From NCBI RefSeq assembly GCF_000564855.1, contig NZ_AYXG01000004.1, positions 1-64,000 on the forward strand: 64,000 bases of DNA, read 5' to 3'. The stretch comes from Actinokineospora spheciospongiae. GTDB taxonomy: Bacteria; Actinomycetota; Actinomycetes; Mycobacteriales; Pseudonocardiaceae. Position 1 is the first letter of the stretch, and every line of letters starts with the position of its first letter. The notes under the pieces were generated by a model. The model searched no databases and was not told the origin of the DNA. It saw only the letters and a list, made by a program, of their open reading frames with translations. The position numbers were made by a program, and so were the translations under genes. Below are positions 11,196-40,982 of this stretch, piece after piece.

Positions 11196-12316
11196 TGTCT
11201 CGTAATCCGGTGATCGGGTTGTGTGGCAGGTGGTTGTGCAGGTGATCTCGTCGTCGCGTTCGGAGTGGATGGCGCCGTTCACCGGGTTGGAGCCTGTGGG
11301 GTGCCAGAACCCCGCACGGGGCTGCTGAACTGCGGGTTCGCAGGCGATGGATCGTAGGAGCATGATCGAGGCGTGGTGTTCGGCTGCTGTATCTGATCTT
11401 TGCCCGCCTGCTGCGCGCGCACCGAGTGGTGACACCAGGCACTGTCTTGCGATGGCATAGGTGGATGGTCGCGAGGAAGTGGACCTACCCGAACCGGACA
11501 GGGCGCCCACCGCTCGACGACACGGTTGCGGCGTTGATCGAGCGGATGGCTCGAGAGAACGCCGGCTGGGGCTACCTGTGGATCCAGGGCGAACTGCTCA
11601 AGCTCGGTTACCGGGTAGCCGCCTCGACCATCCGGCGCGTGCTCAAGCGCCCGCGGATACCACCTGCCCCGATGCGTACCACCGACCTGTCATGGAGGAG
11701 ATTCCTCCATGACCAGGCTACGAGCATGCTGGCCTGCGACTTCTTCCACGTCGACCGCGCGGTCACCCTCAAACGCGTCTACGTGTTCTTCGTCCTGGAG
11801 GTCGCTACACGCCATGTCCATGTCCTGGGCACCACCACCAACCCTGACGGCCCGTGGACGACTCAACAGGCCCGTAACCTCCTCATGAACCTCGGCACCG
11901 ACATTAAAGGCCGGGCCGACGAGTTCCGGTTCTCGATCCGCGACCGGGCCGGAGAGTTCACCACCGCGTTCGATGCCGTCCTCGCCGACGCCGACATCGA
12001 CGTTGTGAAGATCCCACCACCGTGTCCGCAGGCGAACGCCTATGCCGAGCGGTTCATCGGCACCGTCAGACGTGAAGTCACCGATTGCCTGCTCATCGTC
12101 GGCGAGCGTCACCTGAACTCGGTGCGGGACCGCTACGTCTCGCATCACAACCATCGCCGCCCTCATCGGGGATTGCAGCTCATGCCACCACGACCAGACA
12201 GCCCAGTTCCGCAGCCGAACCGCACAGCTGTACATCGCCGACCGGTCCTCGGCGGCCTGATCAACGAGTACGAACCAATAGGGGCTTGACGCAGGTCAAG
12301 GCCTGCGCACCGACTT
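11196..12316 (+). mobile_element. degraded insertion sequence with DDE (rve) transposase
   Basis: The block from the sequence GAGCTGTCTCGTAATCCGG (about 11193) to about 12316 is insertion-sequence DNA. It contains an N-terminally deleted integrase-core transposase and abuts the C-terminal half of a second, unrelated transposase. About 180 nt of the left part carry no frame. Precise terminal repeats could not be established by eye, so the limits are approximate. Confidence 0.5.
11426..12289 (+). pseudogene. integrase-core (rve) transposase, N-terminus deleted
   Basis: 287 aa from GTG 11426. The catalytic triad is present: Asp in LACDFFHVD, Asp in IRDRAGEF and Glu in NAYAERFIG. The C-terminal HHNHRRPHRGL is typical of this group. 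Relatives have about 100 more N-terminal residues. Here the expected first block (VRLLYLIF, in frame at 11378-11401) is fused directly to ARLLRAHRVV, so an internal in-frame deletion removed the DNA-binding region, and no start codon remains upstream. It is probably inactive. Confidence 0.75.
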
Positions 12317-13027
12317 TTGACACCCCACAGGGGCGCCCAGGACGTGGTGACCCGCACCGACACCCGTCTCTACGGCACCGCGACCGCACATGCCTGGAAC
12401 CGCCTGCATCCACGACTGACCCACCGGGCCGCCTGGATCGATCACGACGGTTCCCTGCCGATCATCGAGGGCACCGTCGTCCGTCTGACCGTCGAACACC
12501 TGCCCAGCGGCGGGGTGAACAAACCGGTCTGGCTGTGGTGCTCCGGCACCGACGCCGACGAGGCCCAGGTCGACCGCTATTGGCAGATGTTCCTGCGGCG
12601 CTTCGACATCGAGCACACCTTCCGGATGCTCAAACAGACCCTGGGCTGGACCAAGCCCCGACTGCGCGATCCCGAGGCCGCCGACCGCTGGACCTGGCTG
12701 CTCCTGGCCGTCCACGCCCAACTCCGCCTGGCCCGCCCGCTGGTCGCCGACCTGCGCCACCCCTGGCAACGACCCGCCGAACCCGCCATGCTCACCCCCG
12801 CGCGCGTCCGTCGAGGGTTTCGCAACCTCCACACGAAGATCGCCCGCCCAGCCGGGGCGCTGAAACCCGGTCACCCCGGCCCAGGACGACCGGCCGGATC
12901 GAAAATCATGTTGTCGCGCAACGCTTCGACGTCGGACTACTCCTGGTCACCGGCCAAGCGCACACCCAACCGGCCCACCACAAGAAGGGCACCAAACCCC
13001 GCCGAAAAGGTTAAAAGACAAGCTTAG
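12317..13027 (+). pseudogene. C-terminal half of a second transposase, frameshifted
   Basis: Encodes the distal part of a large DDE transposase of the type with FLRRFDIEHTFRMLKQTLGW and a terminal GPGRPAGSKN block. The N-terminal half is missing at the junction with the preceding element. Near 12898 the frame slips: the expected tail (HVVAQRFDVG) continues in the neighbouring frame to about 13014. The remnant ends about 20 nt before the sbcC stop codon. Two overlapping IS scars therefore separate the bicyclomycin cluster from the sbcDC genes. Confidence 0.7.
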
Positions 13028-13046: not shown

Positions 13047-16000
13047 TCAAGCCAGAGTCTGTAGACCTCGCGCGAGATCGTCCTGGGCTACGACGTCGCG
13101 TTCGGCCGCAGTCAACCAGGCTGCTGTGGAGCCGGAGGCGTTGCGCTTCACCCACAACACGTCGTCAACCGCCTCGGCGACGACGTGGAGGTGGCTGATC
13201 ACCAAGACCAAGCGGTCACTGCCCGCTTGTGCGCGCAGGACGTCTAGGGCCGACTCGAGCGCCGTGGTGTCCAACGTTCCGAAGCCCTCGTCGAGGAAAA
13301 GGGCTCCCAGTCTCGGCCCGCTGCGGGAGTGCAGTACCGCCAACGCCAGGGAGAGGGCGAGCGATGCCAGGAACTTCTCACCGCCGGACAGGCGGTTGGG
13401 GGTGTAGGTCACGTCGGACCCGCGGCTGACGATGTCGAAGTTCTCGGCGAAACCGAACCGCATGTCGGTGAGCCTGCCCAACAGGTCGCTCGCGACACCC
13501 AGCAGTGCGCCGGTGTTCAGGGCGGTTAGGTGCCCGAGGAACTTGGCGTCGACGAGGTTGCGGCGCAGCACGTCCAAGGCGTCTCGGCGGGCGGTCCCTG
13601 CGGCGATGGCGAAGTCCAGGTCCGCGGCAGGCTTGACTAGCGCCTGCGCCCGGGCCTCCTCTTTGCGCTGGGTCGCCTCCTCCCTCCGCGCCGTCGCCGC
13701 CGCAGCGACCAATGGGTGCAGCGCGTTCTGGGCGGTCAGGTCGGCAGTGGAGTCGAAGCCGTCGACATCGCGAAGGGGGGCGGCCAACTCCCGGAGGCGG
13801 TCAACCGCGGCACGGGTGCCTGCTGTGTTCACCTCGTGCGCCGTGGTCAGCTCGTTGACGAGTGCGCCGGAGTACGAAGACAGGTCCGCCGCGAACGCCC
13901 GGGTCTCGTCGATTCCCCACGCCGAGGGGCGTTCGACTGCCGTGAGGCGTTGATCCGCCCGGCAGTGGGTGCGGGCCCTCGCTGCGGACTCAGCCCACGC
14001 CTCGAGCGCGCGGCGCAGGGCGTCGAGCGGTTTGTCGTGTTTCGTGATTGCCTCCCTGTCCAGGGCCGCCTGCTCCACCAACAGGTCGGATCGGGTCGCG
14101 CCGAGTGCTTCCTTGGTCTTGATGGTCTGCTTGATCTGCGACAGCAGGTCGGCGAGAGTGACCTGCGCGGCTGACAGGCTTTCAGGGGTGACGTCCGCGA
14201 GTTCCCCCGGCAGCACCGATCGAAGCCTCGGCGGCAGACTGTCCAGGTCCGCGGAGCCGTCTGCCATCGTGAGCCGGAGTCGGGCGGCCCCCGCGTCGAC
14301 TTCGCGGCAACGCCGCTCGTGCGCCTTCTTCCTGGCTTCGAGGACCTTGCTGTCCGCTGCGAGTTCCTCGGTGTGGCGATGTTCGTCGTGGACGAAGCCT
14401 GCAGCGCGATCCGATGCTTCCCGGGCACACGACCCGAGAAGCGCCGTGCTGGATTCCACAAACCGCCTGGCCGCCGCTCCGGCAAGCCCGACCTGGTCGG
14501 TGCGAAGCTCGGCGAACTCAGTCAGCATCGACAGCGCGGAGTCGACGGCGAAGTCCGATCCTGCTTCCTCGGCGAGACGACACACGAGTTCGTAGTCCTG
14601 CCGCAGCGCGGACACGGCTGTCGTGGCATCGCTTCTCGCCTGTGCGAGTCGCGTCGCGCATGCCGCCTCTCGCTTCTGTCCCTGTCCGGCGGCCGCTGTG
14701 GCCTCCGCGACCTCGGTGCCCAGGCGGTTACGGGCCGCCGTCGCCTCCTTGACCCGCGTGCGTGCCGTCCGCAACTCGACCGCGCTCGTGTGGGACGCGG
14801 GCTCGAACCCAGCCGGTACCGGTCTCCGGCACACCGGGCAGTCGTCGCCTGGATGGGTGGTCGAGGCGAGCGCCGCTGCCCGGTCGCGCGACTCGAGCGC
14901 GTCCACCTTCCCACATGCCTCGGCGAGTTCTCGGTCGACTTCGGCGGTGTCGAGTCGGGCGACGAGATCACGGGCGGTCGTCAGCTCGTGGCACGCGGTG
15001 GCGTGGTCTTGTTCTGCTTCGGCGCTGTCGGTCATCGCGGTCCCCACGGCGGTGACGAGTGAGCGGGTGCCCGTGAGGTGTGAGTCGAGCGCACTGCTCG
15101 CCGCGACCGCGATCCCGGTCGCTGAGCGAAGAGCGGCGCTCCGCTCGGCGCGGGTGACCAGGTCCTGCTCCACTCTCGCGATGCCCTTCTGCTCGTCACC
15201 CAGCTCAGTGCCCATCGTCGCCAGTCGGGCCCGTTCGGAGCGGTGTGAATCCGCTCGTGTGCCCAGACCGCGCAGGACCACCTCGGCTTGGATGAGCGCG
15301 TCACGGCCCTCACCCACGGTCTCGGCGTCGGTGATCATCGTGTCCAGCGCGCTCTCGCGGGCGTCGACGTCGTTACGGCGCGATGCCAGGGAACGTCGTC
15401 GGGCGGTGATGTCGGCGGCGACCGCATCGAGGCCTGCCAGGGTTTCCCCGGTTCCGAGAACCGTCCGCCCTCGCAGGTCCTCCAGTGCTGCGGAGATCAC
15501 CGTCGCCTGCTTCTGCCTGGTCGCGATCTCCTGTCGCGCGGACGTCATGTCCTCGATCGTTCCGGCCAGGTTCGTTGCCAGGGCCTCGGCGGCGTCAGCC
15601 GCCGCGCGCGCCGTCGCGGCTGTATGGGTCGGGTTGTCCGGCATGTGCGCGCGGACGGTCCTCGCCTCGGTGAGCCGCAGGTCGAGCCTGGCCTTGCGCT
15701 TCTCGGCCAGGCCCTGCTGATCCGCCAGTGAGTCGGTCGCGAACAGTTCCCGGAGGAGTCCGCTGCGCTCCTTCGGGGTGGCGGTGAGCAGTTTGTCGAA
15801 CCTGCCCTGGGGCAGGAGTCCCACTCGCAGGAAGGTCTCGTAGCCCATGTGCAGCAGGCCCGCGATCCGATTGTCGACGGCGGTGGCGCCGTCGACCTCC
15901 TCCCCGGTGTCCAGGTCGGTCAGGTGATGGCGTCCCGGGGTGGTCTTGGCGTTCATGGTGCGGCGCACTCGCCAGCGGTGCCCGTCGTGCAGGAAGTCCA

Positions 16001-16223
16001 ACTCCACGCTCAGCGAGTCGGCCCCATCCGCGATGAGCGCCCTGGGCTCCCGCGCGTCCCAGGAACTCTTGCGGTACAGCGCGAACGTGATGGCGTCGAG
16101 CAGGCTGCTCTTGCCCGCTCCGGTGTCACCGATCACTCCGACCAGGCCCTTGCCGGTCAGGTCGACCCTGACCTCGGCCGAGTAGCTGCGGAGCCCTTTG
16201 ATCGTGAGTCTCAGCGGTTTCAT
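13047..16223 (-). CDS. sbcC: SbcC-type nuclease subunit (SMC-like ATPase)
   Basis: 1058 aa. N-terminal Walker A GDTGAGKSSLLDAI near residue 37, long coiled coils, a CPVC zinc hook at about 460, and C-terminal signature LSGGEKFLASLAL with Walker B LFLDEGFGTLD. With SbcD it forms the Mre11-Rad50-like complex that cleaves hairpins and protein-blocked DNA ends. ATG at 16223 overlaps the sbcD stop as ATGA; a longer open frame to 16334 lies inside sbcD. The coding region is intact to its stop although IS scars start about 20 nt beyond. It sits divergent to a defence-like operon rather than in a housekeeping context. Confidence 0.93.
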   Translation of the reverse strand: MKPLRLTIKGLRSYSAEVRVDLTGKGLVGVIGDTGAGKSSLLDAITFALYRKSSWDAREPRALIADGADSLSVELDFLHDGHRWRVRRTMNAKTTPGRHHLTDLDTGEEVDGATAVDNRIAGLLHMGYETFLRVGLLPQGRFDKLLTATPKERSGLLRELFATDSLADQQGLAEKRKARLDLRLTEARTVRAHMPDNPTHTAATARAAADAAEALATNLAGTIEDMTSARQEIATRQKQATVISAALEDLRGRTVLGTGETLAGLDAVAADITARRRSLASRRNDVDARESALDTMITDAETVGEGRDALIQAEVVLRGLGTRADSHRSERARLATMGTELGDEQKGIARVEQDLVTRAERSAALRSATGIAVAASSALDSHLTGTRSLVTAVGTAMTDSAEAEQDHATACHELTTARDLVARLDTAEVDRELAEACGKVDALESRDRAAALASTTHPGDDCPVCRRPVPAGFEPASHTSAVELRTARTRVKEATAARNRLGTEVAEATAAAGQGQKREAACATRLAQARSDATTAVSALRQDYELVCRLAEEAGSDFAVDSALSMLTEFAELRTDQVGLAGAAARRFVESSTALLGSCAREASDRAAGFVHDEHRHTEELAADSKVLEARKKAHERRCREVDAGAARLRLTMADGSADLDSLPPRLRSVLPGELADVTPESLSAAQVTLADLLSQIKQTIKTKEALGATRSDLLVEQAALDREAITKHDKPLDALRRALEAWAESAARARTHCRADQRLTAVERPSAWGIDETRAFAADLSSYSGALVNELTTAHEVNTAGTRAAVDRLRELAAPLRDVDGFDSTADLTAQNALHPLVAAAATARREEATQRKEEARAQALVKPAADLDFAIAAGTARRDALDVLRRNLVDAKFLGHLTALNTGALLGVASDLLGRLTDMRFGFAENFDIVSRGSDVTYTPNRLSGGEKFLASLALSLALAVLHSRSGPRLGALFLDEGFGTLDTTALESALDVLRAQAGSDRLVLVISHLHVVAEAVDDVLWVKRNASGSTAAWLTAAERDVVAQDDLARGLQTLA

Positions 16224-17542
16224 CGTCGTGCCTCCGTCCCGGTGACCGTGCCGTCGGTGAGCAGCCCGGTGCGGTCGATCCCGTCGAACCCCTTCCCTGC
16301 GATGGCTGCGTCCAACAGCTCCTCCTCGCAGCACGGTGTGGTGTCGGCCGGATCCGGTTCGGCCCGCATCCCCGCGAACGTGGACATGGCCTGATCCAAC
16401 GCGATCCCGTGCGTCCCGTGCTTGGACAGGTAGTCGTGGAGCATGTCGTGGACATCGGGAAGGTCGGTGTCCACCGCGACGCGGTCGAGCACGGCGGTCA
16501 CGGCGCCGGGGCAGCGCTCCTCGACGTCGACGATCGTTGCTTGGGGAAGCAGTTCCTCCAGCCTTTCGCCCAACAGGGCCATGGGGCTCTCGCTGTCCAC
16601 CACCGCCTTCACCCAGGCGTCGCCGACGCCCGCCGCACGCTGCGCGATCTGGTCGAGCGTTCCGGTCAGGCGCCGCAGCGGCCTGCCGGAGTCCAAGGGG
16701 GCGAGCTCGACCCGAGGCGGCCTTCCCGGGGTGATCTCCACCAGCGCGATGCTCTTGGCGTCGCGCGTTTCGCCGAAGTCCATCTGCAGCGGGCTGCCCG
16801 CGTAGTGGGCGGGATACCCCGCGCGGGGGACGAGCTGCGGCTTGTGGATGTGGCCGAGCGCGCCGTAGTCGACCTCCGGCAGGGCGACGGCCTCGACCGC
16901 GTAGGCGGAGGACACCGAGATCGTTCGCTCCGAGTAGGACGGTGTCGCGCCCTCGACGAACAGGTGGGCGGCGTACACCAACAGGTCTCGCGGACCGCGG
17001 GATGCGGCCAGGCGCCGGTACACCTCCGCTTGCACCTCGCGCATCCGCTCGGCGTAGCTCGCCGTCGCCGAGGCCGGGTCGTCGAACTCGTAGGCGAACC
17101 GGTTGGGGTGCAGGTAGGGAAGCGCCCCGACGCGCACCGTCAGCTCCCCGGTTTCGGCGGGGTACTCCGCCAGCAGGAGCCCTCCCGGCCGGGCGTCGGT
17201 GGCGAAGCGCACCCGCGCCCGATCACCCGTCCGTGCGCCCAGGTCGCTGAGCATGTAGTCCAGGAACGCCAGGACGTGTCGTGTGTCGTGGTTGCCCGCG
17301 ACGACGACGACAGGGGCGATGTCCCCGAGTTCGCGCAGGGTCTGGGCGGCCCGACGCATGTCGTCGAGCGAGGGCCTGGGGCTGTCGAAGAGGTCTCCGC
17401 TGTGCACGATGAGGTCCGGGGCGAAGTCCTGTGCGACGGAGACGATCTCGCCGAGGACGGCGTCGAATTCCCGATCGCGTCGGTGGCGGCCGATCTGGCG
17501 GCCCAGGTGCCAGTCGGAGGTGTGGAGAACACGTGCGGACAA
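16220..17542 (-). CDS. sbcD: SbcD-type exonuclease subunit (Mre11-like)
   Basis: 440-aa calcineurin-fold phosphoesterase. Metal-binding motifs in order: LHTSDWHLG (D-x-H), SGDLFD, AGNHDT, YAAHLF, and LGHIHKPQ (G-H-x-H). A C-terminal capping domain follows. The preferred start is TTG at 17542, with GGGAGG seven bases upstream and the catalytic DWH close to the N-terminus; the ATG 84 nt further upstream has no ribosome site. It forms an operon with sbcC. The start lies about 130 bp from the divergent operon, and the two share a control region with a palindrome. Confidence 0.92.
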   Translation of the reverse strand: MSARVLHTSDWHLGRQIGRHRRDREFDAVLGEIVSVAQDFAPDLIVHSGDLFDSPRPSLDDMRRAAQTLRELGDIAPVVVVAGNHDTRHVLAFLDYMLSDLGARTGDRARVRFATDARPGGLLLAEYPAETGELTVRVGALPYLHPNRFAYEFDDPASATASYAERMREVQAEVYRRLAASRGPRDLLVYAAHLFVEGATPSYSERTISVSSAYAVEAVALPEVDYGALGHIHKPQLVPRAGYPAHYAGSPLQMDFGETRDAKSIALVEITPGRPPRVELAPLDSGRPLRRLTGTLDQIAQRAAGVGDAWVKAVVDSESPMALLGERLEELLPQATIVDVEERCPGAVTAVLDRVAVDTDLPDVHDMLHDYLSKHGTHGIALDQAMSTFAGMRAEPDPADTTPCCEEELLDAAIAGKGFDGIDRTGLLTDGTVTGTEARR

Positions 17543-17622
17543 GGCATGCCTCCCGGGGAAGGAGAGGGGTGCCGCGATGGGCGCGCACCCGGGGTCGACG
17601 GGTTCAGGGCGCCCACCGTACA

Positions 17623-17643
17623 CCATAGTAGGGAAGACTATGG
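17623..17643. promoter_or_regulatory. 21-bp perfect palindrome in shared promoter region
   Basis: CCATAGT and ACTATGG form perfect 7-bp arms around a 7-nt centre. The site lies between sbcD and the divergent defence-like operon, just upstream of a TACGAT -10 element, at the place of a -35 box. This is the classical layout of a repressor operator. The 279-aa gene product immediately downstream is a candidate binder. Confidence 0.6.
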
Positions 17644-17661
17644 AAGAGTCTGGATTTCTGG

Positions 17662-17667
17662 TACGAT
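17662..17667 (+). promoter_or_regulatory. -10 element TACGAT for a probable leaderless transcript
   Basis: TACGAT ends six bases before the ATG at 17674, the geometry of actinobacterial leaderless mRNAs (TANNNT about 7 nt before the +1 A of ATG). No Shine-Dalgarno sequence precedes that ATG, which supports leaderless initiation. Confidence 0.5.
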
Positions 17668-17673
17668 GAGACC

Positions 17674-18513
17674 ATGAGCGACCCCTTGGACGTGCTCGAG
17701 AAGAGCATCGCCGACCTGCGCCGCGCGATCCGTGACGCGTCCGCCGTCGGTGACGCGGAACGCGCGGGCATGCTCCGCGCGCAACTTCGCCGCGCGGAAC
17801 GGGCCTGGGACACGCTCATCGATGTCGACCCGGCGCCTGTCGCCCCGGCCGTCGAGATCCCGCCCCGGACCGGGGCGACGGGTGCCCTGCTCCCCGCTCG
17901 CGAACATGTGCACCGCGCCCTGACGCTCTTGCGGGCCCCGGCCGCGCCGAAGTTGATCGTCAACGTGCACGAGGCGTTCTTCTCCGGTGAGCTGCCGCCC
18001 ACCAAGCTCTCCAGCCTCCGTCGAGACGAGGAGCGCTCCTACCGCTCAGCGCCCGGCGCCCGGCCCTACTACCTGTGCCCGGCCCTCGCCCACGACCTGC
18101 TGGCCCCGGCGCGGGCACTGCTCACCCTCAGCACCTGGCCCCTGGAGCGACGGATCATCGGTCCGCTGTCACCCAGGGTCGATTTCCTCGGTAGCGCGAT
18201 CCGCGTCGGGGAAGCGGTCTTGGCGGCCACCCCGTCGACCGACAACGCGGGCCACCTGGCCACCCGCCTGCTGCGGCGCTTCGCGACGAACATCCCGAAC
18301 GCGCTCCCGCACAGCCACGGCTCACGCGCGCAGTCCGACCCGCTGGATCCGGAACGGGTCATCGATGCGGCCCACGCCGAACTCGAGGTCCACCTCGACG
18401 CCGACCACCGCACAAGGGTCGAGTCCGCCACCCGCGCGCGCAAGCAACTCCGCGACGACGAACAACTGTTCGGAACCCGGCTGCGGCGCGTCGGGAGCGA
18501 GCACCAGGCCTGA
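17674..18513 (+). CDS. unknown protein with coiled-coil start and HTH-like middle
   Basis: 279 aa. The N-terminus is a charged helix (SIADLRRAIRDASAVGDAERAGMLRAQ segment, about residues 9-47). The middle (about 80-130: HRALTLLRAPAAPKLIVNV, then TKLSSLRRDEERSY) reads like a winged-helix fold, and a helical tail follows. I recognise no characterised family. It starts an operon with a nuclease and a helicase 46 nt and more downstream, and its promoter overlaps a palindrome. It could be the operon's regulator or a DNA-recognition subunit. Separate from sbcDC, which is read the other way. Confidence 0.65.
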   Translation: MSDPLDVLEKSIADLRRAIRDASAVGDAERAGMLRAQLRRAERAWDTLIDVDPAPVAPAVEIPPRTGATGALLPAREHVHRALTLLRAPAAPKLIVNVHEAFFSGELPPTKLSSLRRDEERSYRSAPGARPYYLCPALAHDLLAPARALLTLSTWPLERRIIGPLSPRVDFLGSAIRVGEAVLAATPSTDNAGHLATRLLRRFATNIPNALPHSHGSRAQSDPLDPERVIDAAHAELEVHLDADHRTRVESATRARKQLRDDEQLFGTRLRRVGSEHQA

Positions 18514-18559
18514 CCGGACACAGACCACCACACGCGCCACCGCAAGGAACAGAAGCACC

Positions 18560-19702
18560 GTGACACCAACCACCGACGACCGCCTGGACGCGCTCCGCGG
18601 CTCGGCACCGCGCCTGACCTACAGCGCCAGGTCCCTGGCGGCATTGGAGAACAACCCCCGCTGCACGCTCCGGGCCGTGTTGGACGCGTCCGGCTCGGAC
18701 AAGGCGGCCATCGCCACCCACGCCGGGTTCCCCGCCCCCTTCGGGCAGTCGACCTTTGCGATAACCCGGGGCAACGCGTTCGAGAACATGGTCAAGGACA
18801 ACGGTTGCGCCGAACTGCTGCGTGTTCTCAGGGAGACCTTGGGACTCACCCTCCCCGAGGTCGGGTACGTCGACCTCAACGACGTGGGCGGCGACGCCAG
18901 CCAGCCTGCCCGGTTCGCGCGCACCAGAGGACTGCTGGTCGCCGCCGCACGGGGACAGGGCGACGGCACCCTCTTCGACCACCCCGTGCTCCGCTTGGTC
19001 GTAGGCGGGCACGCCGTGTTCCTCGAGCCGGACCTCGTGGCCTTCCGCGTCGACGACCGCTTCCACGTCGTAGAGATCAAGAGCTTCCCGATCGTCGACG
19101 AGCAGGCCGACACGGCCAAGGTGCGGGCGGCGACGACGCAGGCCTGCGCCTACATCATCGCGCTGCGAGCCGTGCTGGCGGAGTCGGGCATCGGCCCCGA
19201 GGCCGTGTCCGAGACGGTGGTCCTGGTGGCCCCCAAGGACTTCGGCAACCGGCCGACCGGGGCCGTGGTCGACGCCCGCAAGCAGGTCGCCACCCTGACC
19301 CGCCAGCTTGCCCGCATCGAGCGCATCGGTGAACTGGTGGGCCTGTTGCCGGACGTGGTCACCTTCGACCTCGACCCGGACGACGCGGGCAGGCCACGAC
19401 GCCCTGCCGACGCGCTGACCGCCGCCTTGGACCAGGTGCCCGCCACCTACCGGCCCGACTGTCTCAACCACTGCGAGATGTCCTTCTACTGCCGGTCCCG
19501 CGCCCGCGCCGAGGGCTCGCTGGACGTCCTCGGTTCCGCGGTGCGCGAGCAGCTTGGTGGCCTGGACACCATCACCATGGCCTTGGGCCTGGCCCAAGGC
19601 GAGCTGGCGCCGGGGGCGGACCAGGCCGAGATCGCCGTCGCACTCAGGCACGCCGACCGGCTGCGCTCCGAGCTGACCGGGACCTCGGGGAGCGCGTCGT
19701 GA
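18560..19702 (+). CDS. Cas4/RecB-like PD-(D/E)XK nuclease with Fe-S cluster
   Basis: 380 aa. The nuclease core is visible as FLEPDLVAF (Asp near 158) and VVEIKSF (Glu-x-Lys near 171-173). A lone Cys near 34 (RCTL) and a C-terminal C-x3-C-x5-C (about 301, 305, 311; DCLNHCEMSFYC) match the split four-cysteine [4Fe-4S] arrangement of Cas4 and AddB nucleases. GTG at 18560 has AAGGAA upstream; earlier in-frame sequence lies within the previous gene. It overlaps the next gene by GTGA. Likely role: 5'- or end-directed DNA cleavage together with the SF1 helicase two genes later. No cas1/cas2 is present, so a CRISPR adaptation role is unlikely. Confidence 0.8.
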   Translation: MTPTTDDRLDALRGSAPRLTYSARSLAALENNPRCTLRAVLDASGSDKAAIATHAGFPAPFGQSTFAITRGNAFENMVKDNGCAELLRVLRETLGLTLPEVGYVDLNDVGGDASQPARFARTRGLLVAAARGQGDGTLFDHPVLRLVVGGHAVFLEPDLVAFRVDDRFHVVEIKSFPIVDEQADTAKVRAATTQACAYIIALRAVLAESGIGPEAVSETVVLVAPKDFGNRPTGAVVDARKQVATLTRQLARIERIGELVGLLPDVVTFDLDPDDAGRPRRPADALTAALDQVPATYRPDCLNHCEMSFYCRSRARAEGSLDVLGSAVREQLGGLDTITMALGLAQGELAPGADQAEIAVALRHADRLRSELTGTSGSAS

Positions 19703-21210
19703 CCACGGTGTCCGCGCTGGCCCGCCTGCACGCCGCGCGGAACATGGCCGCGGAGCCGCTCACCCGGTTCCGGCACCGTCACTTGTCCGACCGGCCACTG
19801 GTGGTGATCCCGCTGACGATGGCAGGTGAGGCGGGTACCCCGCTGGCGGCGATGGTCGGCAACAACAGGCGCGCGCCGACCTTGTTGGTGGTCGGACAAC
19901 CACGCAACCGCGACCAGCGGTTCGCGTTCGCGGCGGCGCTGGGCAGGCTGGTGATGGACCACATCGATTCCTGCCGCCAGGATCGCAGGCAACTCACGCC
20001 CAAGGTGTCCGGCTACACCCGGACACCGCAACTCCTCGTCCCCAACCCCGGCGGCGTCAAGGCCCTGGCGGACCTCGGGCGCGTGTGCCGCTACCGACAG
20101 ACCACCGGGGACCACGCCGTGCCCGGGATCGTGCCCGAGCTGGGGAAGTGGTTGACGTTCCTGGCCGAGCAAGCCGAGCAGGCGGGCACCTCCATGCTGT
20201 TGGCGGTCACCGACCTGCTCGCCGAGCACTGGGCAACCGGCCAGAGCGCGCTGGAGGACCGCAACCTGGCCTCCATCATGGCCTGGATCGAGCCGCCGTC
20301 GGGTCTGACGGTCGCACAGGCGCTGGAGGACGCCGAGAACCCCACGGTGTGGCCCCCGGCGGGACCGACGACCTCACCGGAGTTCGACAACACCTACCTC
20401 TCCACAGCGATCAAACGCTTCGACGCGGCCCGCGCGGCGGGCGATCCGGCCGCGATCGCGACGGCCCAGGCCGACCTGCACGACCTCATCGGCGCACAGA
20501 TCAAGCCCACGTGGCGCATGATGTGGGACGCGATCGCGCTGCTGCGCGGTGTGGCCGAGGCGCCGCGGACGAGTACGCGCTTGGCCCAGGACCGCAAGGC
20601 GTTCACCGGCTACTCCGACTACCAGGAGTCCGAGGACCCGCGCCCGCAGCGCAGGCGGGATGACGCCATCGGCGCAGCGAGACGGCTGAGCAGGCTCGAG
20701 CGGGCGCAGGCGGATTTCGAGGCCGACATGGCCTTCGACGACCCGTTCGTGCTTGCTGACAGACGCAGCGCGGGCGAGGCCTTCGCGGGCGAGGTCGTGG
20801 AAGCAGAACCCGGCCGGGTGGTCGTGAGTGCCGCCAACCGACGGACCCTGCGCCCCAGGGCCACCATCCGCACCCTCGACCCCACCCGGCTGGCCGACGG
20901 GACGACGCTGATCAGCCCTACGATGGGCGCGAGCCACAAGGCCGTGGTCATCTCGACGACACCGGACGGCGCCGCCAGCCTGGTCGAGGTCGAGGTGACC
21001 GCGGGCATGGGCGGAGTCAAGTCCCCCAACACGGGCAACATCCCCACCGCCGGTCAGAGCATCGCGTACCTGCCGGACCCGGGCTGGCGTCCCTGGCCGG
21101 TGTTCCCTGAGCGCGACGATGCCCCCTGGACTCACACCACCGACACCCCGGGGTCCGATGCCCCGGCACCCGACGAGACAGCCGCGGAGGCCTGGGGCGA
21201 TGACTCCTGA
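19699..21210 (+). CDS. unknown 503-aa protein between nuclease and helicase
   Basis: GTG start in a 4-nt overlap with the nuclease gene; its last 11 nt overlap the helicase start, so the three are translationally coupled. The N-terminal third has alternating strands and helices (PLVVIPLTMAGEAG, APTLLVVGQPRNRDQ), the middle is helical and charged, and the last 150 residues look beta-rich (GRVVVSAANRRTLRPRA, KAVVISTTPDGAASLVEVEV) before an acidic tail. No catalytic motif or family was recognised. The strict coupling implies it is a core subunit, perhaps a sensor or scaffold. Confidence 0.6.
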   Translation: MTTVSALARLHAARNMAAEPLTRFRHRHLSDRPLVVIPLTMAGEAGTPLAAMVGNNRRAPTLLVVGQPRNRDQRFAFAAALGRLVMDHIDSCRQDRRQLTPKVSGYTRTPQLLVPNPGGVKALADLGRVCRYRQTTGDHAVPGIVPELGKWLTFLAEQAEQAGTSMLLAVTDLLAEHWATGQSALEDRNLASIMAWIEPPSGLTVAQALEDAENPTVWPPAGPTTSPEFDNTYLSTAIKRFDAARAAGDPAAIATAQADLHDLIGAQIKPTWRMMWDAIALLRGVAEAPRTSTRLAQDRKAFTGYSDYQESEDPRPQRRRDDAIGAARRLSRLERAQADFEADMAFDDPFVLADRRSAGEAFAGEVVEAEPGRVVVSAANRRTLRPRATIRTLDPTRLADGTTLISPTMGASHKAVVISTTPDGAASLVEVEVTAGMGGVKSPNTGNIPTAGQSIAYLPDPGWRPWPVFPERDDAPWTHTTDTPGSDAPAPDETAAEAWGDDS

Positions 21211-22543
21211 CGACAACACCCCCGACCCCGCTCGCGCCGCCGAGGCGGTGACGGCGGCGATCCTGGCGGACCTGGCCTCCACCGACCACCGCGCGGTGGT
21301 CGTCGACTCCCCGCCCGGTGCGGGCAAGAGCACCCTCGTGGTCCGGGCGGCGGGCGACCTCGTCGACGGCGGCGAGCGGCCGATCATCATCGCCCAGACC
21401 AACAACCAGGTCGACGACCTCGTCATCCGCCTGGCCACCGAACACCCCGACCTCCCGGTCGGCAGGCTCAGCGGCGGCAACTACACGGCACCCGCTGCGA
21501 TCACCGACCTCGCCAACGCCACCGTGGGCGGGACCCTGGCCGACCTGGCAGGGTGCGGACTGGTCGTGGGGACCTCCGCCAAGGTCGCGACGGTCCGCGA
21601 CGGCACGTTCGGCTGGGCGATCCTGGACGAGGCCTACCAGATGCGGTCGGACATGCTGCTGCAAGTCGTGCCGCGGTTCGACCGCGGCCTCTTCGTCGGC
21701 GACCCGGGACAGTTGGACCCGTTCACTGTCGTGGGAACCGAACGCTGGATCGGGTTGCCGCACGACCCGACCCAGAACGGCGTCACCGTGCTGCTGGAGC
21801 ACAACGAGGGCACCCCCGTGCACCGCCTCCCGGTGTCGTGGCGGTTGCCCGCCTGTGCCGCGCCGACGATCTCCCAGGCCTTCTACCCGTTCACCGGGTT
21901 CTCGGCGGGGACGACGCACGGTGTCCGATCACTGCGCTTCCGCAGCGCCGGGTTCGGTGGGACAGACCTGGACGAGACCCTCGCGATGGCGTTCACCACC
22001 GGGTGGGCACTGCACGAACTGCCCCGCCGACACGTCCCGCGCACCGACACCGAGACCCTGCGCACCGCAGCGGGCCTGGCGTGCAGGCTGCTCGAACGCG
22101 GCGCGGTCGGCGTGTGCGAACGCCACCCCGGCGAGCGGGACCTGAGCGCCTCCGACATCGCCATCGGAGTCGCCCACCGCGACCAGGCCGGCCTGGTCCG
22201 GTCCGTGCTCGCCCAAGCGCCCAACCCGACGGCCCGGCAGGTGGCGGTCGACACCGCCAACCGCCTGCAGGGCCGCGAGTTCGAGGTCGTGATCGTGGTG
22301 CACCCCCTCTCCGGTCGCCGCGACGCCACCGCGTTCCACCTTGAGGCCGGGCGGTTGTGCGTCCTCACCTCCCGCCACCGGCAGGCGTGCATCGTCGTCG
22401 CCCGCGAGGGGATCGTCGACATCCTGGACAGCCACCCCTCGACCGACCCGGTGCACCTGTCGGTGCCCGCGAAGTTCCCCGACGGCTGGGAGGCCAACCA
22501 GGTCGTCATGGCCAAGCTCGTCGATCACCGGGTCGCGGCGTGA
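21200..22543 (+). CDS. UPF1/Dna2-like SF1 helicase
   Basis: 447 aa. Motif I SPPGAGKST (about 36-44), motif II ILDEAYQM (about 142), motif III GDPGQLDP (about 167), motif V ANRLQGREFEVVIV (about 353) and motif VI SRHRQACIVV (about 389) define a compact superfamily 1 helicase without extra nuclease domains. ATG at 21200 lies inside the end of the upstream gene. Paired with a Cas4-like nuclease two genes upstream, it resembles helicase-nuclease pairs used for end resection or for attacking foreign DNA. It is followed after 106 nt by jetA on the same strand. Confidence 0.82.
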   Translation: MTPDDNTPDPARAAEAVTAAILADLASTDHRAVVVDSPPGAGKSTLVVRAAGDLVDGGERPIIIAQTNNQVDDLVIRLATEHPDLPVGRLSGGNYTAPAAITDLANATVGGTLADLAGCGLVVGTSAKVATVRDGTFGWAILDEAYQMRSDMLLQVVPRFDRGLFVGDPGQLDPFTVVGTERWIGLPHDPTQNGVTVLLEHNEGTPVHRLPVSWRLPACAAPTISQAFYPFTGFSAGTTHGVRSLRFRSAGFGGTDLDETLAMAFTTGWALHELPRRHVPRTDTETLRTAAGLACRLLERGAVGVCERHPGERDLSASDIAIGVAHRDQAGLVRSVLAQAPNPTARQVAVDTANRLQGREFEVVIVVHPLSGRRDATAFHLEAGRLCVLTSRHRQACIVVAREGIVDILDSHPSTDPVHLSVPAKFPDGWEANQVVMAKLVDHRVAA

Positions 22544-22649: not shown

Positions 22650-24230
22650 ATGAGCAGCACGCCGGAACAGCCCCGAAGTTGGTGGCGCGGTGTCGTCGCC
22701 AGTGACTGGACCGTGTTCTCCCTGCCCGAGGACATCGTGCGGGATCGCTACTCGGCCTTGCTGGCCGCCCTGGAGGAACTGAGCACCCGGGGTCCTCGGT
22801 CGACCGTGGCGGAGATCGTAGATCGGCTGCGCGCGGTCGGCTTCCACGACCCGTTGACCGACGCCGACCTGCGCGCCCTGCTCGACCAGCTCGCCACCTG
22901 GGGTTTCGCGGAGCCGTTCCGGGATTTCGCCGCACCAGTGCGCAACTACCGCGGTGTCGTGGCCAGGCAGGAGGCGTGGGCGCTGACCCGTCGCGGCCGG
23001 GCCGTGGTCAGCGCCGTCCGCACCGCGGTCGCCTCGGCCGACCGCGCGCTGCAACTGCCCAGCAAGCTCCTCGACAGCGTCGAACAGACGGTCCGGACGC
23101 TGTTGGCCCACGCGGACGACAAGGAGGCCCACGGCCTGCTCGGGGCCGACCTCGGCAACGTGGGCACGCGGATTGCCGAACTGCAGCGGGTCACCGCTGA
23201 CTTCTACGACGCGCTCGGCAGGCTCGTGCAGTCCGACGTGACCCGCGACGAGGTCTTCGGCAGCAACCGCGACCGGGTCGTCGAGGCGCTGCGGCAATTT
23301 GCGCGGGAGTACGACCGGGGCTTGGTCCGGGTCTGTGCCGCGCTGGACGCGCTGCGGCGCGTGGGTCACCAGCACGTGGTCCAGTGCGCTGTCGAGCACG
23401 CCGGGCTGCTCGACTCCTCCGCGCAGCAGCAGTGGGTGACCGAGCAGGTGTCGCTCCTGTCGGCACTGGAAGCCTGGTTCACCCCGGAGGGGAGCATCCC
23501 GGCACTGGTCGAATCCGCCCACGGAGCCGTGAACACCCTGCTCAACGCGATCGACCGACGCTACAACGCACGCCTGCGCGGTGCCGACCTGTCCGTCGAC
23601 TTCCGACTGCTGGCGCACTCGCTGCACCGGCAAGCTGACGACGAACAGGCCCGCCGGGTCTACGCCGCCGCGTTCGGTGACTGGCCCGCCTGGCACGTCC
23701 TGGCAGGTCCCGCGCGCGAAGACGTCGACCACTCCTCCACAGCGGCCGCCGGGACCACTCCCTTCGTCGTGGAGCTGACCTTGCGCGAGCACGAGCGGCA
23801 CGGGCCACCCAGCGGCCGCCCGAGGAAGGTGGCCGACGCGTCGACTGAACGAAGCCGTGCCCTGGCGGAGGCCAGGGAACAGGCACAGCGCCGCGGGCGC
23901 CGCGCGGCGGCGTTGCTCACCCCAGGCGAAGTGGGGCTTGAGCACTTCACCGATCTCGACGCCGACTCCGCCGCCGTGCTCTTCGACGCCATCCAGTCGG
24001 CACTGGACGCGGTCGACCCCGCGACCGGTGTCGGTCAGGTCGACGCGGACGAGGCCGGGGTGCTCGTCGCGGTGCGGGTCCCCGTCGGTGCCGAGCGGAG
24101 CCTCGTGCGGCTGGCGGAGGGCGACCTGGATGCACCCCGGCTGCGCGTCACGGTGACCGCGGCGGAGTCGGCCCTGCCCGATCCCGACACGATCGGCACC
24201 GGATCGAAGGCTTCCCGGAGCGTCGCATGA
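22650..24230 (+). CDS. jetA: Wadjet subunit JetA (DUF2397/TIGR02677 type)
   Basis: 526 aa. The opening ASDWTVFSLPEDIVRDRYSA followed by winged-helix segments is the pattern of TIGR02677 proteins, the kleisin-like subunit of this Wadjet subtype. ATG at 22650 follows CGAGGAG; the open frame upstream belongs to other genes. It overlaps jetB by ATGA. In Wadjet, JetA-JetB-JetC form an SMC-type loop extruder that brings circular plasmid DNA to the JetD nuclease. From memory this DUF2397/2398/2399 version is the type III arrangement. Confidence 0.85.
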   Translation: MSSTPEQPRSWWRGVVASDWTVFSLPEDIVRDRYSALLAALEELSTRGPRSTVAEIVDRLRAVGFHDPLTDADLRALLDQLATWGFAEPFRDFAAPVRNYRGVVARQEAWALTRRGRAVVSAVRTAVASADRALQLPSKLLDSVEQTVRTLLAHADDKEAHGLLGADLGNVGTRIAELQRVTADFYDALGRLVQSDVTRDEVFGSNRDRVVEALRQFAREYDRGLVRVCAALDALRRVGHQHVVQCAVEHAGLLDSSAQQQWVTEQVSLLSALEAWFTPEGSIPALVESAHGAVNTLLNAIDRRYNARLRGADLSVDFRLLAHSLHRQADDEQARRVYAAAFGDWPAWHVLAGPAREDVDHSSTAAAGTTPFVVELTLREHERHGPPSGRPRKVADASTERSRALAEAREQAQRRGRRAAALLTPGEVGLEHFTDLDADSAAVLFDAIQSALDAVDPATGVGQVDADEAGVLVAVRVPVGAERSLVRLAEGDLDAPRLRVTVTAAESALPDPDTIGTGSKASRSVA

Positions 24231-25654
24231 GACAGGACACACTCCTGCCCCCGGACCTCGCCGACTGCGCCAGGCAGTTGGCCGCCCGGGGCAGGCTGCT
24301 GGCGGAGCGGGACCCGGAGCTGTACCGGACCGCGGTCCTCGGGCAGGAGCAACTCGGGAAGTTCTTCGCCACGGAGTTGGGGTGGCGGGTGGACGTCGTC
24401 GAACACGCGGACATGGTCCGGCTGCACAAGCGCAGGCAGGACGTACCGGGAACGCGCGGTCCTCGACTGCGGCGCGAGAGCCGGGACCGGCCGCTGGCAC
24501 CCCGTCTGGTGCTGATCGTCGTGGCTCTGGTCTGCGAACAGTTGTGGAGACGACCTCGGATCACGGTCAACGACCTCATGCAGGCCGTCTCCCAGGTGTG
24601 CGCGGCCGACAGCGCGGACGGGTTGCTGCCGAGGTTCCGCATCGTCCCCGATGAGGAGGTCGGCAAGCGCGAGGCGCGGGAGAACCGGCAGAGCATCGTG
24701 GACGCGTTGCGCCTCCTGGACGCCGACGGCACCATCGTGTTCGAGGGCGACCTGGACCACGCGGTGGACGAGGACGGCGCGGACGGAGTCGTCGCGGCGT
24801 CCCGCGACCGGCTGTCCGCCCGGTTCTCATCGTTGTCGCCCTCCCTGCTCAAGCTCTCGCAACTGCCCCCTGACCGACACGTCGAGGCGCTCGCCTCGGA
24901 CCGGGTGCCGGACGACGCGGACGTGGACGACGGAGGCGCAGAGGATGGAGGCGAGGAGGACTGGGACACCGCGGCGCCAGGCGAGCACAACGCCCGCACC
25001 GCGACGACCGTGCGCCGTCATCGGGCGGTCCGCAGGCTCGTCGACGACCCCGGCACCGACCCGGTGGCCGATGACTACCTGCAGAGCTCGACCGGGCGCA
25101 ACAGGGCACTCAACGTCCTGCACGCGCTCGGACTCGTCGGGACTGTGCGCCGGGACTGGTGGCAGGTGGGCGATCCGACCGGCCTCGGCAGCACGATGGA
25201 CTTCCCCCACGGCAGACGCATGGAGAGGCAGGCGGCGCTCGCCCTGCTGCGGCACCTAGGGACCCGCCCGATGCTCGACGGCGGGGAGGCCCCGGTGACC
25301 TCCGCGGAGATCGAGTCGCTGTTCGAGCGGATCCGGGAACGGTTGCCGCGCTGGGCCGCCGCGTACGACCGGCAGCAGGCCGCCCTGGCCCGTGCCGCGG
25401 CGTCGGAACTCGTCGACGCGGGCTTCCTCGTCGACGTCGCCGAGCCCCCCGACCAGGCGACCGCCACTCCCGAGCCCCACTGGCGGCCCACCCCCGCCGC
25501 GCGGATGTGGCAGGTCAAGGTCACCGAACCCGATACATCCGACAGCCACCACAGGTCTGGTGGCCACCACACATCCGGTGGCCACCAGACATCCGACGGC
25601 ACAGTGCCGAAGCGACCAGTTGTGCCCGACGACTCGGAAGGAGGCCTGTGGTGA
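24227..25654 (+). CDS. jetB: Wadjet subunit JetB (DUF2398/TIGR02678 type)
   Basis: 475 aa. Features of TIGR02678: GKFFATELGWRVDVVEHADM, then PRLVLIVVALVCEQLWRRP and paired winged-helix blocks. It corresponds to the KITE-like partner of the SMC subunit. ATG overlaps jetA; the stop overlaps the jetC GTG. The extreme C-terminus is odd: a tail with three 6-residue units (HHRSGG, HHTSGG, HQTSDG) encoded by an 18-bp tandem repeat. An acidic insert (DDADVDDGGAEDGGEEDWD) sits mid-protein. The tail may bind metal or simply be repeat slippage. Confidence 0.82.
   Translation: MRQDTLLPPDLADCARQLAARGRLLAERDPELYRTAVLGQEQLGKFFATELGWRVDVVEHADMVRLHKRRQDVPGTRGPRLRRESRDRPLAPRLVLIVVALVCEQLWRRPRITVNDLMQAVSQVCAADSADGLLPRFRIVPDEEVGKREARENRQSIVDALRLLDADGTIVFEGDLDHAVDEDGADGVVAASRDRLSARFSSLSPSLLKLSQLPPDRHVEALASDRVPDDADVDDGGAEDGGEEDWDTAAPGEHNARTATTVRRHRAVRRLVDDPGTDPVADDYLQSSTGRNRALNVLHALGLVGTVRRDWWQVGDPTGLGSTMDFPHGRRMERQAALALLRHLGTRPMLDGGEAPVTSAEIESLFERIRERLPRWAAAYDRQQAALARAAASELVDAGFLVDVAEPPDQATATPEPHWRPTPAARMWQVKVTEPDTSDSHHRSGGHHTSGGHQTSDGTVPKRPVVPDDSEGGLW
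25547..25600 (+). repeat. three 18-bp tandem units at the end of jetB
   Basis: Units begin at 25547, 25565 and 25583 and share GGTGGCCACCA and ACATCC segments. They keep the reading frame and encode His/Ser/Gly-rich hexapeptides just before the jetB C-terminus. Copy number is likely variable between strains. Confidence 0.7.
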
Positions 25655-28600
25655 CGGCTCTCATCACCGGTGCGGAGACGGCCGGATCGGCTGCGCGGCA
25701 AGGCCTTCCCGCCGTGGAAGGACGGTGGCAGCCGACCCGCGCCGGTGTCCTGAACAGTTGGAAGTGGACCGACGAGCGGTTCCACTTCGCGAACGGGTGG
25801 TTGGCCTTCATCGGGAGCAACGGATCCGGGAAGTCCCTGACGGCGTCCGGGCTCGTCACCGTCCTGCTGGACGGTGACACGTCCCAGGCCGCGCTCAACG
25901 TGTCGGGCAGCGCGGCGGGCACCCTGTTGAGCAGGCACACCGACAACAGGGAGAAGGAGGACAAGACCGGGGTGTGGTGGCTGGAGTACGGCCGGACCGA
26001 CCCCGACACCGCGACCACCGAATACGTGACCACCGGCCTGTGGCTGCGCTCCTCGGGACCCACCCTGCTGAGGGCGTTCTTCCTCGTGTCCGGCCGGGTC
26101 GGCCACGAGATCGAGCTGCAGCAGGATCGGAACCCGGTGGGCATCGAACGCATCAGCGAGCAGTTGGCGGCCCACGGCGGTGAGCTGTTCACCGACGCTG
26201 CCCGCCTGCGGACGAAAGCCGGGGCGGTGCTGCGGACGGTCAGCCCCCAGGGCGCCTATCGCGCGGCGGTGCGCCTGCGCCTCTTCGCGCCGCTCGATGA
26301 GGTCCAGTACGACGCCCTGCTCAGCGTCCTGCGGACGCTGCGCAGCGTCCGGACGGCCGAGAAGATCTCCGCCAAGGACATGCTCAGCGTGCTCACCGAC
26401 GCCCTTCCCGCGCTGGACCAGGTCAAGCTGGCGGAGATCGCGACGGCGATGCAGCGCATCGCCACCCAGGAGGCGCGCCTGGTCGCCACAAGGGACCAGG
26501 CGAGGAAGCTCACGAGGACCGACCGTGCCTACGACCGGTACCGGCAGGCGGTCGCGCTGGCCACCGCAGCGTCACTCCGGTCGGCCAACACCGAGTTCGA
26601 CAACCTGACCCGATCCGAGACGGCGGCGGAGAACGACCTCGCCCGGGCGACCGCCCGCGCGGACGACGGCAGGGAGGCGCTCATCCAGCGCAAGCAGGAA
26701 CGCTCCCAGTGGGAAGGCAAAGCGGGCGCCGCTGAGACCCTGCTCCGCAAGCACGCTGGGGCCGAACTCCCTTTCCGGGAACAACGCGCCCGAGAGCTGG
26801 ATGAGGCCGCCGAAGCGGCCGAACGCCGCGCGCGGACCGCGATCGACCAGGCCAGGGCCGGGGGAGCCAAGGCGGCCGAGACCGCCCGGGTGGCGGCGGA
26901 AGCGCAGCAGAGCGCGTCCGGCATCGCACACGAACTCGCCACGACCGGGAGACCGCTCGGAGCGGCGGGCGCGTTGGAGAACATGCTGGCCGCCACAGCG
27001 GGGCTGACACTCCCCGAGGCGCTGCTGCCGGACGCACCTGACGTGGAACTGGCCGTCGACGAGCTGGCAGTGGTCCCCCTGGTCTGGGTCGAGGCGCGCG
27101 AGGAGGCTGTGGAGAACGTGGTGACGGCGCTCGGCAAAGTCGGAACCGCCAACCAGTCGGCGGTCGACGCAGGCGAACGACTGCGCCTTTCGCAGGACAT
27201 CGCGGCCCAACGAGCCGACCAGCTCACCCGGCACACCGCGGATCGGGCCAAGGCCGAGCAGCACTTGACGGCCACGATCGCCGAGTGGCACCGGGGATGC
27301 GACCACTACCCACCGGTTCCGGACGACCTGCTCGCGCCGGATCTGGTCGACAACCGGGTCGACCCCGCCGGGCTCGCACACTGGCTGGCCCAGCAGACCG
27401 ACCGGATCAGGCAGGACATCGACGTCCCCGGGCACCGTGGGAGCAAACAGAGCGCCGACCGCGCCGCCGAGCAGGCGGTCGTGTTCGCCCAACAGCAGAA
27501 AGACAAAGCCAACACGGCCGCCGACGCCGTGACCGGGGCCCGACGGACCCTGGACGACCAAGTCCGTGAAGCCGATGACGAGGCGGACAGGGATGCCGCG
27601 GCGCTGGCGGACGCGGAGGCAGCGCACGGCCGTCGGGTCGAGGCCGCGCTGTCGAAGCGCCACGACCACTTCCTCGCGCTGCTCGACGACACCGGTGCCG
27701 CACTGGAGGCCCTCCGGCACTGGGAGCGAGAGGCCGAGCGCTGGCGGACCGGACTGCGCCACCTGAACGGGTCTGCTCTGACCATCCCGATCTCAGCGGC
27801 CACCCGCCTGTCGCGGGAACTTCGCGATGCCCGCCGCAGCGTCGCACAACCGGAACTGGAACAGTCCTCACCTGCGGTCCGCGTCGCGGGCAGCGCCCTG
27901 GAGATGCTCGCCGGGCACGACGACACCGCCCTGCGGTCGGCCGTGGCCAGCGCCGCCCAACAGACCGCGCGGCGCCTGCACGGGAAGGTCGTCGACGCCG
28001 ACAACGTCGTCAGGCGGCTTGGCCAGGAATCGGCCGCGGTGGAAGCCGACTTGGCCGAGGCACGGAAGGCGCCGTCCCCACCCCCCGCACCAGCGTGGCG
28101 GACCAGGTCGGACGGGCACCCCCTGTGGTCATTGGTCGATTTCCACGACGACGTGCCCACCGAGTTGCGCGATTACTGCGAGGGGGCCCTGCTCGCCGCC
28201 GGCATCCTCGACGCGGTGGTCACCGCCGACGGCCGGGCGCGCGTCGGCGACACGGTACTGGCAACCGACCGTCCAGCGGCAGACCGTTCACTCGCCGAGG
28301 TCCTGTTCCCCGAGCGCGATGCCGCAATCGAACCCGGTCGGATACAGGCCCTGCTGCGCGCGGTCGACCTCGTCGACGTCGAGGCGGGTGTGGAGGTGCG
28401 TTCCGGAGTCATCACCGCCGTCGCACCACCCGGCCACACGTCGCGCTTCATCGGCACGACGGCTCGGGAACGAGCCCGAGCAGCGCGGGTCGTCGAGCTG
28501 CAAACCCAGCTCGCTGTCCTCGAGGGTGCACTGGAAACAGCCACCACCGTTCTCCGACGATGCCAGGACGACGAGACCGAGGCCGCTGAGGAGCAGGCCA

Positions 28601-38349: not shown

Positions 38350-38430
38350 CTCGACCGCACAACTCTGAGCAACGGCAGGCCGGGCGTCAGCCGTACGGTC
38401 GAAAGCCACCTAAACCGCAGCTCAAGAAGT

Positions 38431-38459
38431 ATCTTCCCCGCGCGAGCGGGGCTATTCCC
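38431..38459 (+). repeat. solitary type I-E-like CRISPR repeat
   Basis: A 29-nt sequence with the core CCCCGCGCGAGCGGGG flanked by TT and CTATTCCC closely resembles the actinobacterial type I-E repeat. It lies 80 nt after the Cas3-like gene. No second copy is found at the expected 61-nt interval on either side, so it is an orphan repeat, not an array. Confidence 0.6.
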
Positions 38460-38591
38460 AATTCCTTGGCTGTGGAGACCGAGGTCTTCAGCGGCATCGG
38501 TCTGAGACTGGCCCGCCAGTTCGCCGGCTATGACATCCCGTGATGCTGGTTGCGGACGAGAACCGAGTCCATACCGAGGCTGCGATGCTCT

Positions 38592-40891: not shown

Positions 40892-40982
40892 CCTTAACTG
40901 GCTGAAGCGCCACTAGGCGTGGTGGCGGATGGGCGGAAGGATCGGGGGCGTATCAGCGGCGAACCTGTCTCGGGGAGCAGTC

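Follow-up and report, generated by a model that had tools for sequence, protein, structure and literature searches.

A divergent gene set of sbcDC, a Cas4-like nuclease, p503 and a helicase as a possible accessory of Wadjet in Actinobacteria

What do four consecutive genes placed between sbcDC and a Wadjet operon in Actinokineospora spheciospongiae do? They occupy positions 17674–22543 of the stretch analyzed here (the window: 64,000 nucleotides, positions 1 to 64,000 of contig NZ_AYXG01000004.1) and encode a putative regulator (p279), a Cas4-like nuclease, a protein of no recognizable family (p503) and a superfamily 1 (SF1) helicase. A first-pass annotation of the sequence took them for a possible free-standing four-gene defense system, with sbcDC and Wadjet as mere context. 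We abandoned this as the main reading, as sbcDC and Wadjet of three types recur with the four genes; judged by gene neighborhoods, both are part of the unit because of this recurrence, and not simply neighbors. We propose, giving the idea an even chance, that the four genes make up one arm, the right, of a divergent module of six genes for DNA-end processing (sbcD and sbcC in one arm; p279, nuclease, p503 and helicase in the other), which would act as an accessory to the neighboring Wadjet.

Gene layout and the association with Wadjet

The relevant features of the window are as follows.

17674–18513, plus strand: p279, predicted DNA-binding regulator, winged-helix-like, with a coiled coil at its N-terminus
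18560–19702, plus strand: nuclease, 380 residues, GTG start; predicted Cas4/AdnA-like PD-(D/E)XK enzyme with four conserved cysteines
19699–21210, plus strand: p503, GTG start, no family match
21200–22543, plus strand: helicase, 447 residues, compact SF1 type (UPF1/Dna2-like)
16220–17626, minus strand: sbcD, Mre11-type nuclease (TIGR00619)
13047–16223, minus strand: sbcC, Rad50-type ATPase in the divergent arm of the module (open reading frame 13047–16334)
17641–17667, plus strand: candidate operator/promoter, direct repeats TGGAA-N5-TGGAT-N3-TGGTA-N3-T spaced 10 and then 8 bp
22650–24230, plus strand: jetA of Wadjet type II (PF09660 DUF2397, 1.9e-52; PADLOC JetA2, 1.5e-43)
24227–25654, plus strand: jetB of Wadjet type II (PF09661 DUF2398; PADLOC JetB2, 4.7e-30)
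25651–30699, plus strand: jetC, SMC-like ATPase of Wadjet type II (PADLOC JetC2, 2.6e-146; start at 25651 or 25714)
30696–31946, plus strand: jetD, nuclease subunit of Wadjet type II (PF11796/PF09664; PADLOC JetD2, 3.8e-50)

All four reading frames of the right arm, p279 included, are open as first annotated. The claimed translational coupling of three of them also stands, the nuclease and p503 genes overlapping by 4 nucleotides and the p503 and helicase genes by 11, with p279 set 46 nucleotides apart from the nuclease gene. The helicase frame is open from 21119 already, and the ATG at 21200 agrees with relatives. Sequence comparison confirms the four genes as genuine and intact and shows their conservation: chance is excluded because about 40–80% identity is kept by the set in more than 100 loci.

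The position between sbcDC and Wadjet was read correctly: sbcD and sbcC lie to the left on the opposite strand, and the Wadjet type II operon starts 106 nucleotides past the helicase gene. PADLOC and Pfam identify jetA2, jetB2, jetC2 and jetD2 in this one operon (22650–31946), and by its sequence it is intact. SbcD scores 123.8 bits against the curated cut-off of 77.65 for TIGR00619 and its gene adjoins that of a large SbcC ATPase (1058 residues), so the pair qualifies as SbcCD; comparison with locus L061 places the true start of sbcD probably at a TTG near 17542. The sbcC gene is homologous to the sbcC of the module in over 40 loci, and an "SMC family ATPase" is annotated next to the module in NZ_CP108489.1. 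A second SbcD, 36% identical, is encoded elsewhere in the host genome, making the module's sbcDC an extra copy.

The link to Wadjet rests mainly on a set of 107 loci from many actinobacterial genera, to which most counts below refer. A Wadjet gene is found in the examined flank of 39 of the 47 sbcDC-bearing loci versus one of the 60 without sbcDC (Fisher p 5e-20, kinship ignored). The 39 comprise 17 type I, 12 type II and 10 type III cases; some calls are partial or decayed operons (L099, L125, L131, L065), and L059 was assigned to type II by hand, its JetA2 lying about 8 kb away on its contig. Type III Wadjet sits on the sbcC side in L064, L070, L083 and others (JetA3 1e-173, JetC3 6e-283), and on two plasmids of Streptomyces a type I Wadjet comes after the module. 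On the tree of the nuclease, p503 and helicase (hereafter the triad), Wadjet-bearing loci show at least 14 changes of Wadjet type, and near-identical modules can differ in it, type II in L082 versus type I in L074 and L075.

Streptomyces provides a background rate. We counted about 220 jetA genes in 150 genomes, which gives a chance of about 0.3% that one lies within 10 kb of a random point. In the same sample, Wadjet adjoins six of about ten sbcDC-bearing copies (type II in G101, G218 and G229; type I in G288; type III in G280 and G327); none was found beside the sbcDC-bearing copies G285, G245, G319 and G300. The first-pass annotation had asked whether the four genes travel without jetABCD, and the answer is divided: triad and p279 loci do occur without Wadjet, whereas most of those with sbcDC have it.

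Three observations concern the Wadjet genes themselves. The JetC of the window, at about 1660–1680 residues, is some 300 longer than type II profiles (about 1360–1400). The type II jetA genes linked to the module in G218 and G229 score far below most Streptomyces jetA for DUF2397, and these module-linked genes look like a separate sub-lineage by sequence. With JetA3 in 147 of the 150 Streptomyces genomes, type III jetA behaves there like part of the core genome.

The wider surroundings match the island setting first described, with transposase genes (11465–13027) on one side of the block and a phage-type tyrosine integrase (32572–33687) and a Cas3 gene on the other; P450, 2-oxoglutarate oxygenase, major facilitator superfamily transporter and non-ribosomal peptide synthetase genes lie around it. 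By appearance, to judge from gene content, this is a mobile island among biosynthetic genes. The presence of transposase and integrase on either side also suggests that sbcDC, module and Wadjet moved as a unit. The Cas3 gene (Cas3e-like, 35233–38349), some 13 kb beyond the operon, has a gene for a sigma-70 region 4 protein as its neighbor. No CRISPR array was detected in 38200–41200, and a Cas4/CRISPR connection through this Cas3 was dropped on that account.

Proteins of the right arm and their candidate operator

The first-pass annotation described the individual proteins well: an HTH-like first protein (p279 indeed behaves like the product of a regulator gene that binds DNA, as far as its sequence and setting tell), a nuclease with the split four-cysteine arrangement of Cas4, a 503-residue protein of no recognizable family, a compact UPF1-like SF1 helicase, and no named system matched by the genes in Pfam, PADLOC and NCBIfam runs.

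The nuclease is, by its sequence and predicted structure, a Cas4/RecB-type PD-(D/E)XK enzyme. Residues D158, E172, K174, Q194 and Y198 and cysteines C35, C301, C305 and C311 are kept in nearly all of the 107 loci; the three C-terminal cysteines occur in 107/107 aligned loci and C35 in 103/103 that cover it. Thus the protein combines a PD-(D/E)XK core with four cysteines in the Cas4 pattern, and it probably carries an iron–sulfur cluster. Its AlphaFold model (mean predicted local distance difference test, pLDDT, 91.5) matches Cas4 SSO0001 (E 4e-5), MGME1, the AdnA nuclease domain, Exo5 and RecE in a structure search. The protein itself is not recognized by Pfam, PADLOC or NCBIfam; PDDEXK_1 gives a weak match in 11 of 55 relatives, and the Cas4 profile PF01930 matches neither the window nuclease nor any of the 55, the sole PF01930 match of the host genome being on another contig. 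Matches of the nuclease to designed repeat proteins among PDB profiles were set aside as composition artefacts. In one Streptomyces lineage (L041:12404–13522), the nuclease motif VEIK is changed to VLIR (E172L, K174R) with the cysteines retained; its gene lies between large methylase/helicase-like genes, and the protein may be a dead scaffold. L153–L155 look similar.

The helicase is, from its sequence, an SF1 enzyme of the UPF1/IGHMBP2/Dna2 type. It exceeds the cut-offs of AAA_11/AAA_12, matches TIGR00376 (IGHMBP2) and NF040671, and finds SMUBP-2 and Dna2 structures in the PDB, the Dna2 sequence match being weak; the SF1 motifs are invariant across 41 sequences. Two genomes from a single genus have the helicase gene some 40 kb away from the rest; that it is still retained there points to joint function.

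p503 is not recognized by Pfam, PADLOC or NCBIfam and has no match among PDB sequences. Its predicted structure (pLDDT 92.0; predicted template modeling score, pTM, 0.89) starts with an alpha/beta region, continues as a long bundle of helices and ends in a beta-barrel; searches against PDB and viral structures gave nothing at E ≤ 0.001, and the best partial resemblances in Foldseek include weak HerA-type barrels. The two structure-prediction alignments exclude one row each from the plasmid collection. Gene order, long helices and the C-terminal barrel had prompted the idea that p503 is the rift barrel and stalk of a Dna2 split by descent. This was dropped, since the hits listed by Foldseek held no Dna2 or UPF1 and, as barrels, only weak ones of HerA type; the analogy is kept.

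p279 has no family match in Pfam, PADLOC or NCBIfam. Its conserved core, LRRDEERS...RPYYLC, looks like a winged helix in sequence and its N-terminus resembles a coiled coil; PDB profile matches to coiled coils were discarded as artefacts of composition. Upstream of p279, relatives conserve CTGGAA units 10 and then 8 bp apart with a final CTGGTAnnnT that resembles an extended −10 promoter element. Coding-strand CTGGAA is present in 82 of 87 p279 loci, with 143 copies on that strand versus 2 on the other; shuffles give about 4 per group. The element was not found before core nuclease genes lacking p279 (one of 23 has a single copy), nor before the nuclease gene or jetA inside the module, and the composite pattern, with up to one mismatch allowed, occurs once in the 7.5-Mb host genome, at 17641–17667. 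Because the repeats occur only where p279 is present, they fit p279 as a dedicated autoregulator, and from the divergent space the element could control both arms. A palindrome upstream of p279 (CCATAGT-N7-ACTATGG) was rejected as the operator, being missing from relatives.

Distribution and competing explanations

A p279 scan across 84,980 species gave 337 loci, of which 80 were kept. All 80 are actinobacterial except one on a 4-kb contig in a metagenome bin labeled Melainabacteria, probably mis-binned. Within the class, 29 of 198 genomes encode p503. Across the 107 loci, the nuclease, p503 and helicase genes follow one another in this order almost without exception, and p279 precedes them in essentially all p279 loci where contigs permit. 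Three settings can be distinguished: (a) a Streptomyces core triad with conserved flanks and without p279, sbcDC or Wadjet; (b) p279 with the triad, at sites that may be conserved or variable, as in Actinomadura; and (c) p279, triad and sbcDC, the class of the window's locus, with sbcDC in all module copies nearest to it. The sbcDC pair is usually divergent upstream of p279, and lies directly downstream in some loci (L121, L126, L129, L147). In Actinoplanes-type genomes (L126:7118–9948, also L124, L127 and L137), a divergent pair of about 122 and 820 residues stands beside p279–nuclease–p503–helicase; the larger protein is an SMC/ABC-type ATPase matching the mad3 and Lamassu LmuB profiles and replaces the divergent sbcDC. 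Phage and viral-contig collections hold no relatives of the module, a phage origin was dropped for that reason, and the module is rare on plasmids.

Because of the core Streptomyces form, the strongest rival explanation gives the triad a general role in DNA repair or end resection, the p279/sbcDC copies being mobile duplicates that process host or linear-plasmid ends, with Wadjet nearby through a shared niche; we consider this possible, though somewhat unlikely. The core-lineage nuclease is present in 142 of 150 Streptomyces genomes, in conserved synteny, and since this second lineage forms a core set that lacks the regulator, sbcDC and Wadjet, the triad does not serve defense alone. The first-pass annotation had named conserved core-genome recombination genes as the finding that would count against defense, and this holds for the paralogous Streptomyces triad, but not for the copies with p279, sbcDC and Wadjet. 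The repair explanation also gains from a conserved Actinomadura chromosomal site without sbcDC or Wadjet, from SbcCD being a repair enzyme, and from copies on a linear plasmid and in the terminal inverted repeats of G245 and G319. These last lie at mirrored positions (22955 and 10653050 on G245:C1; 23150 and 8508313 on G319:C1), apparently inside the terminal inverted repeats of single-contig linear chromosomes. However, a niche alone hardly explains why three Wadjet types are repeatedly adjacent far above background, including the type swap between near-identical modules, and the island copies come with a regulator of their own and a further SbcD.

Several points also weigh directly against the Wadjet-accessory proposal. 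Most Wadjets occur without the module (the 150 Streptomyces genomes hold type I in 5, type II in 52 and type III in 147), so that Wadjet does not need it. The link of sbcDC to Wadjet is mostly found in one clade, with five sbcDC changes on the tree, and a paired phylogenetic test was not significant. No Wadjet lies within reach of the sbcDC-bearing loci L084, L072, L121, L126, L129, L142, L147, L156, L157 and L161. Defense genes are missing from the surroundings of the core Streptomyces triad, with Wadjet beside 0 of the 15 copies whose flanks were read. Wadjet and the module may also meet simply because both settle in plastic regions, chromosome ends for instance.

Less probable still, and in our judgment decidedly unlikely, is that p279, nuclease, p503 and helicase are a stand-alone anti-phage or anti-plasmid system which islands gather alongside Wadjet, restriction systems and the like. 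Such a system would account for the 36 of 107 loci with p279 and neither sbcDC nor Wadjet, for the methylase/helicase-type cluster around L041 and for the patchy occurrence in the window's genus (p503 in 2 of 16 species). Type I restriction-modification genes beside the module in L069, L087 and L124, where Wadjet was not found, agree with it as well. On the other hand, it is absent from the phage and viral-contig collections and rare on plasmids, and its near-universal Streptomyces form is unlike most defense systems. That the module instead counters Wadjet, repairing or protecting linear or cut replicons on plasmids and chromosome ends, appears highly improbable: two plasmids hold both, so that their carrier must tolerate both, but the two usually share an element and mostly a direction, and a degradative nuclease and SbcCD suit attack more than protection.

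For the Wadjet-accessory proposal, we infer a role in defense from genomic context and envisage the following sequence. p279 would bind the TGGAA direct repeats between the arms and control the module, as the operator suggests. Wadjet, as established for it elsewhere, extrudes and cuts small circular DNA. SbcCD would open blocked, hairpin or protein-capped ends, an activity established in other settings. Nuclease, p503 and helicase, acting together as a split counterpart of Dna2/AdnAB, would then unwind the DNA from these ends and degrade it. The linearized plasmid could no longer be re-joined or repaired, or linear replicons beyond the reach of Wadjet would be attacked too. Wadjet cuts circular and not linear DNA, so that linear plasmids evade it (PMC10586767), SbcCD (Mre11-Rad50) attacks hairpin ends and hairpin telomeres (PMC12624138), and Actinobacteria, like the ends of Streptomyces chromosomes, are enriched in Wadjet (PMC10482375).

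A bolder version, which we regard as unlikely, is that SbcCD and the three-part helicase-nuclease with its new-fold p503 form an end-sensing immune effector that couples to SMC-type sensors of any kind (the three Wadjet types and perhaps Lamassu-like ones), destroying circular as well as linear protein-capped actinobacterial replicons.

Relation to known systems and meaning for Actinobacteria

A complete type II Wadjet follows the module in the window, and types I and III likewise accompany it in relatives; by the descriptions that we found, Wadjet is not known to include sbcDC, a Cas4-like nuclease, p503 or a helicase. The module resembles Dna2, which joins an Fe-S-type PD-(D/E)XK nuclease and a UPF1-like SF1 helicase in the same order. 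However, Dna2 is a single chain, whereas nuclease and helicase are here separate genes at all loci examined and the function would be split over three; moreover, the Pfam families of Dna2 and Cas4 leave the nuclease unmatched, and the Dna2 barrel cannot be recognized in p503. Among AdnAB, AddAB and RecBCD, the likeness is in the fold of the AdnA nuclease domain; in AddAB and AdnAB, a UvrD-type helicase is fused to the nuclease, while that of the module is UPF1-like and unfused. Cas4, including solo Cas4, shares the fold and the split four-cysteine pattern, but the Cas4 family profile does not match. Mokosh (MkoA/MkoC) and PLuB match the helicase weakly through the SF1 core alone, with their other domains and partner genes unmatched.

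We found no published description of the module in a search of open-access papers, preprints excluded. Its parts are of known kinds except p503, and their combination and coupling to all Wadjet types appear new. Three protein families (p279, the nuclease and p503) lack names in the libraries, p503 has no known structural relative, and a near-universal Streptomyces gene set is absent by name from family libraries. Linear replicons escape Wadjet, and Actinobacteria abound in Wadjet as well as in linear plasmids and linear chromosomes. The module makes two questions directly testable: what becomes of the linear replicons that escape Wadjet, and what completes its job on cut circular plasmids.

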